From assembly GCA_002792535.1 (NCBI GenBank), contig PFOM01000024.1:1-36280 (forward strand): DNA of 36,280 nucleotides, read 5' to 3'. Positions 32,836 to 36,245 of this stretch are shown piece by piece; position 1 is the stretch's first letter; each line of letters opens with the position of its first letter. The notes under the pieces are model-generated. The model had not been told where the DNA came from, made no database searches, and saw nothing but the letters and a program-made list of their open reading frames with translations. The translations under genes and the position numbers were made by a program. Origin of the DNA: Candidatus Peregrinibacteria bacterium CG_4_10_14_0_2_um_filter_38_24. Its GTDB lineage: Bacteria; Patescibacteriota; Gracilibacteria; UBA1369; LOWO2-01-FULL-3.

Positions 32836-33927
32836 ATGCACGCAAAACTCATCCTAAAAGACGGCACAATTTTTGAAGGAAAATCATTCGGAGCAGATGT
32901 TTCCGTAGCCGGAGAAGTTGTTTTCAATACATCAATGGTTGGCTATCCAGAGAGCTTCACAGATCCTTCTTACACAGGCCAAATCTTAGTCCTCACCTCT
33001 CCACTCGTTGGAAATTATGGCGTACCGGAAAACATAAAAGACAAAGACCAAATCGAGAAAATTTTCGAGGGAAATCATATAAGTATCACAGGACTAATTG
33101 TAAACGAATACAGCGAAAACTTCAGTCACTGGACGGCAAAAAAATCACTCGGAAAATGGCTTAAAGAAAACAAAATTCCGGCAATCACAGGGATCGACAC
33201 AAGAGAACTTACAAAAAAACTAAGAACTCACGGAGTAATGCTCGGAAAAATTATCGTAGAAAAAAACACAAAAGAAATTCCATTTTTAGATCCAAATTCA
33301 GAAAACCTCGTCGACAAAGTTTCGATCAAAAAACCAAAAATCTATAAACGTGACAAAAAAACAATAATTTGCGTAGATTGCGGAATGAAAAACAACATCA
33401 TAAGAAATTTTCTCGATCGCAACATCACGGTCATAAGAGTTCCTTGGAATTATAATTTTCTTGAAGAAAAAATCGACGGCAAGGAAATAAAATTCGATGG
33501 AATTTTCCTTTCAAACGGCCCCGGCGACCCCGCAATACTCACAAAACTTCACGAAACAATAAAAAAAGCATTCACACTAAAAAAGCCAATTTTCGGAATA
33601 TGTTTAGGTTCACAAATCATGGCAATCGCATCAGGAGCTTTAACCTACAAATTAAAATTCGGACACCGGTCACAAAACCAACCATGTATCGACCTAAACA
33701 CAAATCCTCAGAAATGCTATATCACAAGCCAAAATCACGGATTCGCAATTGACGAAAAATCACTCCACCCAGATTGGAAAGTCTGGCTCCGCAACGCAAA
33801 TGACGAAACTATCGAAGGCATCCGCCACAAAACTCTTCCATTTTTCTCATGCCAATTTCATCCCGAAGCCGCACCAGGTCCACTCGACACAGTTCAATTC
33901 TTCGACGACTTCATCAAAATGTTGTAA
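32836..33927 (+). CDS. carA: Carbamoyl-phosphate synthase small (glutaminase) subunit
   Basis: CarA hydrolyses glutamine and channels ammonia to CarB to make carbamoyl phosphate. The 363-residue product has the N-terminal CPSase domain (VFNTSMVGYPESFTDPSY, 29-46) and a class I glutamine amidotransferase domain with nucleophile Cys256 (FGICLGSQ) plus His342 and Glu344 (CQFHPEAAPGP). The usual GHQ after the nucleophile reads GSQ. The partner gene carB, normally next, is absent after it. Confidence 0.96.
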   Translation: MHAKLILKDGTIFEGKSFGADVSVAGEVVFNTSMVGYPESFTDPSYTGQILVLTSPLVGNYGVPENIKDKDQIEKIFEGNHISITGLIVNEYSENFSHWTAKKSLGKWLKENKIPAITGIDTRELTKKLRTHGVMLGKIIVEKNTKEIPFLDPNSENLVDKVSIKKPKIYKRDKKTIICVDCGMKNNIIRNFLDRNITVIRVPWNYNFLEEKIDGKEIKFDGIFLSNGPGDPAILTKLHETIKKAFTLKKPIFGICLGSQIMAIASGALTYKLKFGHRSQNQPCIDLNTNPQKCYITSQNHGFAIDEKSLHPDWKVWLRNANDETIEGIRHKTLPFFSCQFHPEAAPGPLDTVQFFDDFIKML

Positions 33928-34088: not shown

Positions 34089-34111
34089 AAAAAAAAACCC
34101 GCCGAAGCGGG
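34089..34111 (-). terminator. Strong intrinsic terminator of the minus-strand RNA
   Basis: On the minus strand CCCGC-TTCG-GCGGG (34111-34098) is followed by nine Ts (34097-34089). The UUCG tetraloop closed by C-G is exceptionally stable. The plus strand lacks a T-run after the stem, so the direction is clear. Confidence 0.9.
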
Positions 34112-34563
34112 GGAAAAAGTTTTAAACTGGCTGCTGATAATAGAGCCATTAAACTTTGTTTTTGTTGTAAATCCTACCAAGACTTTGGTGTTAATTTCAG
34201 TTGCACCACCAACCGCCTGTTGTCCTTTAACACGAAACCGTAGCTAGGCCATAGAGTTTGGATAAAGGCAGGACCGCATCCAGAAAGGTCTGGACATCTC
34301 CGGTATTCTAAAGCGAACTTCAGAATACCATCACCTCAGTGAGGACAGAGAGAGAAGTAAATTTTGCAGTCCTTATACAGGAAGATTGGAGAACTCCTCG
34401 TTGAGCTACAATCTTAAACGCTTTTTATTTTTATTTGTATTTTTGTGCGTTACCGCTTTTACTTCCCTCATCTCTCCACTCTTAGAAGAGATAAAGAAAA
34501 ATTTTTTATTTTTGTTTTATTTTTATAATGGAGTTACGACACTCAGATTTCGGCGCCAAAAGA

Positions 34564-34722
34564 TCATTTTGAGATATTTCTCAGGATCTTTACAGTGCGA
34601 CACGAGAATCTTTCAATCGCTTCTCCTTTTTGAACTTCTGTGATTTTAATGTGCAAGTGCTTTTCTAGGGCGTTGTGACTTTCTTGGGAGTGTTCAATAT
34701 TTTTTGTGAACTTTTTTCTCAT
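34564..34722 (-). other. Possible 52-codon frame within the RNA region
   Basis: ATG at 34722 opens a frame beginning MRKKFTKNIEHSQE and ending ILRNISK with a TGA stop at 34564. It would follow the promoter with only a 10-base leader. It matches no family I know. The TGA stop is unlike every intact gene in the window, so I list it as a candidate only. Confidence 0.2.
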
Positions 34723-34738
34723 CCACGAAAATCATATT

Positions 34739-34766
34739 AGTATATCCAATACACAAAATTTGTCAA
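34739..34766 (-). promoter_or_regulatory. Promoter of the minus-strand RNA
   Basis: Minus strand: TTGACA (34766-34761), a consensus -35, 16-base spacer, TATACT (34744-34739). Expected start is near 34732. It is among the best promoters in the window although no convincing protein gene follows. Confidence 0.75.
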
Positions 34767-34943
34767 AATTCTAATATAGACACAACTGAAATATTGTTGC
34801 AGAATAAAAATAGACATGGCTCAAGAAGCCACTAAATGACTCACGTCAAAACAGGCCATTCTGAGAAAAATCTTTTTTCGCTACATGAAATATATAAAAA
34901 TCTATAGATCTTTCATTCAACTCCATCAACATTCAAAGATTTA
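34767..34943. other. Gap between the HNH gene and the RNA promoter
   Basis: No gene seen. A weak hairpin TGGCT/AGCCA (34817-34831), followed on the minus strand by a T-rich stretch, may be the end of the HNH transcript. Confidence 0.4.
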
Positions 34944-36245
34944 TTATTTAGCATTCTTCATCTTATATCTCATAACAACAGAATCAATCTTCTCCTTCGC
35001 ATCCAACACTTCCCCGGTATATTTATCAATAACGCTCTCACATTCTGTTTTTTTCAAAACCCAATTTCCGGGAAGATCCTCTTCATTTGCAATACATCCA
35101 CCATGAATAAGATCGTGATGTTTCTTACAAAGAGGCACAATACTCTCAAAATCATGTCTCCTAAAAAGTGTAAACCTTTTAGTATGATGCAAAACAAAAC
35201 ATGGAAAATTACATTTCGGGAATCCACATTTATAAGAATACTTAGCCAAAATCTGACGCTTCAATGCCACAGGAATATGCCTACTTACCTCACCTTTCGC
35301 ATATCTCAAAAACCCAAGTTTCCCTCCATCCTCACCCTTTTTCCCCTCCAGTTTTTTCAAAAGCACTTCGAAAACCTCATTCCAGCTCAGATTCTGTTTT
35401 CGCTCTTTCTCAAGCCTTTGTTTAAACAAACGAAGTTTAAACTGAACATCAAGACTGGCATGAAAAAGAAAAATTTTATACCGCTCCTCCTGCTTCAAAT
35501 CAAAAGAATTAATCATAGCCCCACCATTAACCCAATTCACTCCAAACACCTCATTCAATCCCAATTGCATGCCACGACCAACATCAACAAAATTATTTGC
35601 CACTTGACCAACGCCAGACCTGTTTTTTAATTCAACGTATACGTTGGCATCATTTTCTCTTCGTTTTTGGCTTACATACGCCACGAGTGCCTGCTGAGGC
35701 AATGCCTCGATTTTCTTTGCCAAATATCCATCATTTTCTTTAGTTGCAATATAAGAAACCGTCTCAATCTTGCTCCAACTTTGCTTCCCCTCTTCAAATT
35801 GCCTCAATAAAATCGGTTTATCAGCAATCCTCCTCACCAATCTCAAAACCCTATCAACAGTAAATTCGCTCATTCCCGCCAACTTTTTTGCAAAATCATA
35901 AAGAGAAACAAAGCCCTTTTTTTTATAAAAAGATCTTTTTCCAACCTCCGGAAGCATAGCAACAAATTTTCGCACCCAAATTTTTGCATTCATTCCACAT
36001 TCCACACATTTTTTATACAATTGGTCGTCAGAAAGATCACAAATTCTTTTTCCAATAGCACTTGGCACAATTCCCTTTCCCTCCACAATTCCCTTTCCCT
36101 CCACACTTCCCTCCTGCACATCCACCCCACCATTATCCACATTCCGACCAATCACTTCATTCACATTTACAAGAAAACTTTTATCATTTTTTCCAACATT
36201 TTTATCCATAATCCCAAGATTAAAAATTACATCAAAATCATTCAT
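34944..36245 (-). CDS. HNH endonuclease, DUF222-like type
   Basis: The 433-residue protein has two recognisable parts. The central helical region (about 70-215) follows the DUF222-like pattern: an FYKKKGFVSLYDFAKKLAG segment, then FTVDRVLRLVRRIADKPILL. The C-terminal HNH nuclease core starts with SRHIPVALKRQILAKYSYKC. It has CGFPKC as the first zinc pair, HH in VLHHTKRF, and LCKKHHDLIHGG as the second part. Relatives are common in bacterial genomes, usually of unknown role and linked to mobile or repeat elements. Residues 46-57 hold the duplicated EGKGIV unit. No RuvC domain is seen, so it is not IscB or Cas9-like. The promoter would lie past the window edge. Confidence 0.8.
   Translation of the reverse strand: MNDFDVIFNLGIMDKNVGKNDKSFLVNVNEVIGRNVDNGGVDVQEGSVEGKGIVEGKGIVPSAIGKRICDLSDDQLYKKCVECGMNAKIWVRKFVAMLPEVGKRSFYKKKGFVSLYDFAKKLAGMSEFTVDRVLRLVRRIADKPILLRQFEEGKQSWSKIETVSYIATKENDGYLAKKIEALPQQALVAYVSQKRRENDANVYVELKNRSGVGQVANNFVDVGRGMQLGLNEVFGVNWVNGGAMINSFDLKQEERYKIFLFHASLDVQFKLRLFKQRLEKERKQNLSWNEVFEVLLKKLEGKKGEDGGKLGFLRYAKGEVSRHIPVALKRQILAKYSYKCGFPKCNFPCFVLHHTKRFTLFRRHDFESIVPLCKKHHDLIHGGCIANEEDLPGNWVLKKTECESVIDKYTGEVLDAKEKIDSVVMRYKMKNAK
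36067..36102. repeat. Two-copy 18-base tandem repeat in the HNH gene
   Basis: CAATTCCCTTTCCCTCCA occurs twice in a row (36067-36084 and 36085-36102), with a decayed third copy after it. It keeps the frame and encodes the duplicated EGKGIV unit on the minus strand. Confidence 0.85.

Follow-up and report, generated by a model that had tools for sequence, protein, structure and literature searches.

A structured untranslated RNA that very probably founds a new, lineage-restricted family in Peregrinibacteria, with a putative small RNA partner

What is encoded by a stretch of bacterial DNA that carries its own promoter and terminator about 640 nucleotides apart and no convincing protein gene between them? 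The window, which is the whole stretch of 36,280 nucleotides that was analysed (contig PFOM01000024.1 of a Candidatus Peregrinibacteria genome, here G000; other G and L numbers denote related genomes and loci), contains such a unit on the minus strand at 34768-34089. A sigma-70-type promoter, TTTTGACA-N16-TATACT, occupies 34739..34768 (−35 TTGACA at 34766-34761, −10 at 34744-34739, spacer 16-17), and an intrinsic terminator with a UUCG loop and nine U residues lies at 34089..34113, both on the minus strand and both recognised in the sequence. An earlier sequence-only reading had reported TTGACA with TATACT and a terminator that has a UUCG loop and nine Ts, and these elements were located at 34766-34739 and 34113-34089. 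Its claim that no convincing protein gene lies inside also holds: the minus strand has no ORF of at least 60 aa between promoter and terminator, and the sole plus-strand ORF there (34386-34643, TTG start) overlaps the RNA and is without support. On one side the unit faces the convergent gene carA, encoding the small subunit of carbamoyl-phosphate synthase (32836..33927, plus strand, assigned by Pfam). Upstream of the promoter is a 433-aa ORF (34944..36245, minus strand) that looks HNH-like by eye and has no Pfam match; L040 and L057 have related ORFs at this position. Near certainly the unit encodes, as a gene in its own right, a structured RNA that is not translated, which we call type A as the founding member of a new family.

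The minus-strand RNA is predicted to fold with unusual stability. The 431 bases at 34090-34520 gave −124.8 kcal/mol (z −4.83), and none of 100 shuffles was as low; the z score of the plus strand over the same interval was −2.02. When 99 related genomes were searched at the DNA level, the unit was recovered within the genus, and matches limited to a shorter core were recovered within the family; the aligned units have the promoter, A-rich linkers, the core and the terminator in common. Of 31 type A loci, 27 have a strict match to the window-type promoter ahead of the core, and all 31 have a T-run 31-120 nt past it.

The conserved core (34155..34348, minus strand) scores 165.5 bits with model R1, 147.2 with R2 and 61.9 with R3, the last being a covariance model of a paralogue described below. 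It consists, in order, of a small hairpin H1, a variable hairpin H2 that is UUCG-capped in the window, hairpin H3, a long stem P4 and an H-type pseudoknot, all on the minus strand. H2 (34302..34329), H3 (34278..34297) and P4 (34216..34272, a CCUG/CAGG and a CCUUUA/UAAAGG helix with an internal loop) include three stems that the earlier reading had named: 34302-34329 corresponds to H2, 34279-34294 falls inside H3, and 34216-34272 forms P4, the outer stem. Each covaries across 14 and 30 homologues, with both-side changes in 8 of 8 pairs of H3 among the 30. The observation that the UUCG hairpin is fully paired on the minus strand alone was also correct, because H2 contains one G-U pair. Another stem that it had named, a putative one at 34382-34415, sits within a genus-specific insertion. 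The pseudoknot (34186..34215) has an A-rich third loop and is formed by S1, CGGUUG/CAACUG (34210-34215 with 34198-34203), and S2, UGGUG/CACCA (34204-34208 with 34186-34190); 98.8% and 98.6% of its cells are paired among 14 sequences, and in relatives, such as a type B RNA (see below) of another family, S2 is UGGCG/CGCCA. Outside the core, strand GAGAGAUGAGGGAAGUAAA (34457..34475) pairs with UUUACUUCUCUCUCUGUCC (34343..34361) in a stem P1 that also occurs in the homologues and was left out of the covariation model counts. The A-rich, unstructured linker AAACAAAAATAAAAA (34503..34517, minus strand) precedes the core, and the linker ACAACAAAAACAAAG (34154..34168, minus strand), near-invariant among homologues, follows it; nearly all homologues have a core flanked by CAAAAAYAAA linkers.

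Covariation among aligned homologues, which the earlier reading had proposed as a check, was assessed at two depths. For R1, a 14-sequence alignment (A2) built by MAFFT from sequence alone, 92.7% of cells were paired, 20 of 42 pairs had changed on both sides, and none of 500 shuffles matched this; when partners were slid, 35-48% of cells were paired. For R2, with 30 sequences, the alignment was fitted to the model and hence leans towards it; here 28 of 37 pairs varied on both sides and 91% of cells were paired (35-47% in slid controls), again with 0 of 500 shuffles matching. We infer that the pseudoknotted core may stabilise the type A RNA.

Matches to the models become rare away from the host lineage. 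In the host family, R1 matched at E ≤ 0.001 in 29 of 30 genomes, about 24 of them strongly (>50 bits), and across the order in 34 of 89. With R2, matches came from seven of the order's families, and the rest of the class contributed only two marginal ones; R3, run over 380 genomes of the phylum, gave one weak match outside the order. The named carriers are mostly Candidatus Peregrinibacteria, with Peribacteria and Gracilibacteria MAGs; some unrelated matches in the same scan are put down to chance. The family thus appears confined to one order of Peregrinibacteria, with almost nothing outside.

Could the RNA be a known one in disguise? At the window RNA, Rfam 15 gave nothing at the gathering cut-off and nothing credible at E ≤ 10. 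Gathering and permissive thresholds likewise gave nothing credible on the homologues, on type B or on the small RNA introduced below, and among homologues at E ≤ 10 no Rfam family recurs at the core. Phage records gave no match to the unit. A highly diverged housekeeping RNA (SRP, 6S, RNase P or tmRNA), one of the two possibilities raised at first, is extremely improbable. The sole RNase P RNA match of the genome (RF00010) is at C33:11291-11656, away from the unit, the tmRNA (RF00023) is at C6:22269-22676, and neither ARAGORN nor cmscan found a tmRNA in the window; besides, no member sequence has a credible Rfam match at the core, and the GNRA-capped SRP domain is absent. What speaks for a housekeeping identity is the state of SRP in these organisms: models RF00169 and RF01854 had no match at the window RNA or elsewhere in its genome, and RF00169 went undetected in 88 genomes of the order, so that an RNA of another kind could in principle replace SRP RNA. 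The canonical G1, DTAGR and TKxDG motifs of the SRP GTPases Ffh and FtsY were, however, also not found in the window's own genome, nor in two thirds of G036; the lineage may lack SRP. Complementary distribution of SRP RNA and type A RNA was considered and dropped, since with SRP RNA undetected in all 88 genomes the comparison has no discriminating power. The other initial possibility, a new lineage-specific RNA, is borne out by the homologues, the covariation, the conserved promoter and terminator, the gene order and the lack of an Rfam match.

The linkers raise a further alternative, namely an RNA that sequesters protein in the manner of CrcZ or CsrB, with the repeated CAAAAACAAA linkers binding an RNA chaperone. 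Weak CrcZ matches (RF01675) do recur and the core is flanked by linkers in nearly all homologues, but these matches are composition-driven, being caused by the linker repeats, and the best, on a homologue, reached 29.2 bits against a cut-off of 95. C/A repeats are equally expected of an unstructured spacer, and single-sequence phmmer searches of the window's own genome found no relative of Hfq or CsrA. We regard this alternative as very improbable.

The gene order around type A is stable. At 25 of 32 loci a divergent DEDD-exonuclease gene lies on one side, in the position held in the window by the unrelated 433-aa ORF, and carA adjoins at 15 of 32; the conserved order of exonuclease, RNA and carA indicates vertical inheritance of type A, as part of the chromosome. 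A second copy, type B, which scores lower, is present in many of these genomes; it shares the core and differs in leader motifs and neighbours. Type B loci (L076-L095) have their own promoter, the leader motif AUGAUGCCCNUGUCGAACC and a GGUCUCC box, and an MscS-type channel gene adjoins them. By sequence comparison, type B is an ancient paralogue of type A. It was not found in the window's genus or in several other genera. In G005 (L043), G015:C2 and G024:C1, which belong to genera without type B, type A is present twice, with 1.2 to 2.7 kb between the copies. An exact 13-mer search of one genome for a pairing partner of type B returned mostly self matches. The neighbouring proteins were considered as a clue to function and set aside: exonuclease and carA at type A differ from MscS-type channel and serine dehydratase at type B, and the neighbours were therefore taken as gene order only. 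Many type A and type B leaders also contain a boxA-like sequence (GCUCUUUAAAA, GUUCCUUGAAA and similar). The 16S rRNA leader of the window's own genome (G000:C23) has a textbook boxA, GUUCUUUAACAUUUU, and in the window's type A leader the boxA-like site is degenerate; ribosomal-type antitermination during transcription of these RNAs is possible.

Another element of type A lies outside the core. The antisense box CAACGCCCUAGAAAAGC (34659..34675, minus strand), which includes the 14-mer CGCCCUAGAAAAGC (34672-34659) and is in the 5′ leader, is perfectly complementary over 17 nt to a loop of another transcript of the same genome. Allowing up to one mismatch, the box CGCCCTAGAAAAGC occurs 59 times in 30 genomes, compared with 9 times for a reversed control, and many occurrences fall opposite, on the other strand, a conserved transcript of about 100 nt near a tRNA gene, which we call RNA-C. 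A conserved short peptide (NALEK frame) was considered for the box and rejected because the frame is broken in several genomes (AGAAAGC for AGAAAAGC) while the nucleotides are conserved.

RNA-C lies upstream of the tRNA gene and has its own promoter and terminator; its layout is a −10 box TATAAT, a 5′ hairpin, a hairpin with the highly conserved loop GGCUUUUCUAGGGCGUU, and the terminator. In the window's own genome the box search found it at a contig end (G000:C41 21882-21600, minus strand). It is present in 19 genomes of the family (among its loci L238, L239, L241-L244, L247, L248, L252-L254, L269, L270, L272 and L274-L277) and in one genome of another family (G036:C1:329031, minus strand), and has no Rfam match. 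Its stems show both-side changes in 10 of 25 pairs, and G-U pairs agree with the RNA-C strand; the conservation of the loop is partly built in because the box served as search bait.

The complementarity between box and loop is perfect over 14-17 nt. In G036 the box has moved from the leader to the P1 loop of type A and the RNA-C loop is unchanged. In G012 a C replaces U in the box and a G replaces A in RNA-C, which preserves pairing; as the one compensatory case seen, this counts for little. Twelve type A RNAs were examined for duplexes with the RNA-C loop, and in 11 of them the box came out as the best site. Between 0 and 41 of 200 shuffles gave duplex energies as good, a clear advantage for the box in some genomes only. 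In a third family, two type A RNAs carry UACCAACGCCCUAGAA, which matches an adjacent part of the loop in other genomes' RNA-C. Taken together, that box and loop pair in the cell, as such, has about three quarters of our belief.

The box is not restricted to type A. In about 11 genomes it lies in UTRs of a two-gene operon encoding an HTH_17 protein and a zinc-ribbon-like protein (L240, L245, L251, L262, L265, L268, L271, L283; G000:C18 11133): in the 3′ UTR in several genera and in the 5′ UTR instead in the window's genus. This UTR also holds a GCCCUUUAGUUCG...CGAACUA hairpin. In one genus the box occurs in the leader of an ATP-cone (nrd, ribonucleotide-reductase-like) gene. These occurrences suggest several partners for RNA-C. 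They could instead mean that the 14-mer is the DNA site of a regulator, with RNA complementarity a by-product of its occurrence on either strand, for individual genomes carry it at several operons, and it occurs in either orientation. That reading is improbable, given that the 14-mer is non-palindromic and sits inside transcripts, in the RNA-C hairpin loop and directly before terminators, and, in other families, in the type A P1 loop more than 100 bp from the promoter.

Pairing between RNAs thus remains the preferred reading, and type A and RNA-C probably form a gene-control pair. Because RNA-C would also pair with box-bearing UTRs, type A is read as its decoy or partner. In the mechanism that we propose, and that we think has an even chance of being right, type A would act in trans by pairing with RNA-C, as its decoy or partner. 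The box, in the 5′ leader or the P1 loop, would pair with the RNA-C loop, RNA-C would pair likewise with box-bearing UTRs such as that of the small HTH operon, and an abundant and stable type A would compete with these targets and so control how much RNA-C stays free. The decoy role in particular commands about a third of our belief. The box is missing from type A of G005, G007, G016 and G033, all of which retain the core, and G007 nevertheless has RNA-C. A core conserved where the box is missing, together with a box-free paralogue, counts against a pure decoy and implies that the core has a role of its own, probably the binding of a protein.

The same facts lend weight to the main competing explanation, in which the core would be the functional element of a ribozyme or of an RNA-protein particle particular to the lineage, with a housekeeping role; RNA-C would be no more than its regulator or assembly partner, and type A the target rather than the decoy. 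Two paralogues have the core in common and not the box, the pseudoknot bears an A-rich third loop, and the RNA is near-universal in the family with a stable gene order. Against this, neither a protein partner nor a catalytic motif was identified, the RNA does not occur throughout the order, and type B has been lost in several genera, including that of the window; we consider this explanation somewhat unlikely. A broader version, which is unlikely, would place the pseudoknotted types A and B at the heart of an RNA-protein machine restricted to this lineage, whose members seemingly lack Hfq and SRP, type A being switched by a movable box that kisses the RNA-C loop and type B by another partner.

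The antisense box, RNA-C and the paralogue go beyond what the sequence-only reading saw. One order thereby gains a conserved RNA family whose structure has been computed and which comes with an ancient paralogue and a putative partner sRNA, base-pairing regulation without detected Hfq is suggested, and RNA regulation in unculturable organisms becomes testable in vitro and by metatranscriptomics. To our knowledge, the non-coding RNAs described as particular to the Candidate Phyla Radiation are few in number. We found no report on non-coding RNA in Peregrinibacteria in the open-access literature that was searched. Type A near certainly represents a previously undescribed RNA family, and RNA-C appears to be likewise undescribed; both lie outside Rfam 15.

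Three kinds of known RNA invite comparison. OLE, GOLLD, ROOL and raiA are large structured bacterial RNAs of unknown function that are represented in Rfam. Type A resembles them as a large conserved multi-stem RNA with a pseudoknot and its own promoter, but it matches no Rfam 15 family, belongs to another lineage and has a paired sRNA. With CrcZ and CsrB-type RNAs it has in common repeated A-rich single-stranded sites between stems, whereas nothing in them corresponds to its conserved core. The closest parallel to the proposed mechanism is offered by sRNA sponges, or decoy RNAs, of the kind described in Vibrio (PMC9732341) and Caulobacter (PMC12559287): in these, too, a stretch of a non-coding RNA is the complement of a trans-acting sRNA's seed, and the sRNA also matches UTRs of mRNAs. 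Type A as a putative sponge differs in its length of about 640 nt, in its covarying pseudoknotted core, in having an ancient paralogue, and in a host in which no Hfq was detected.
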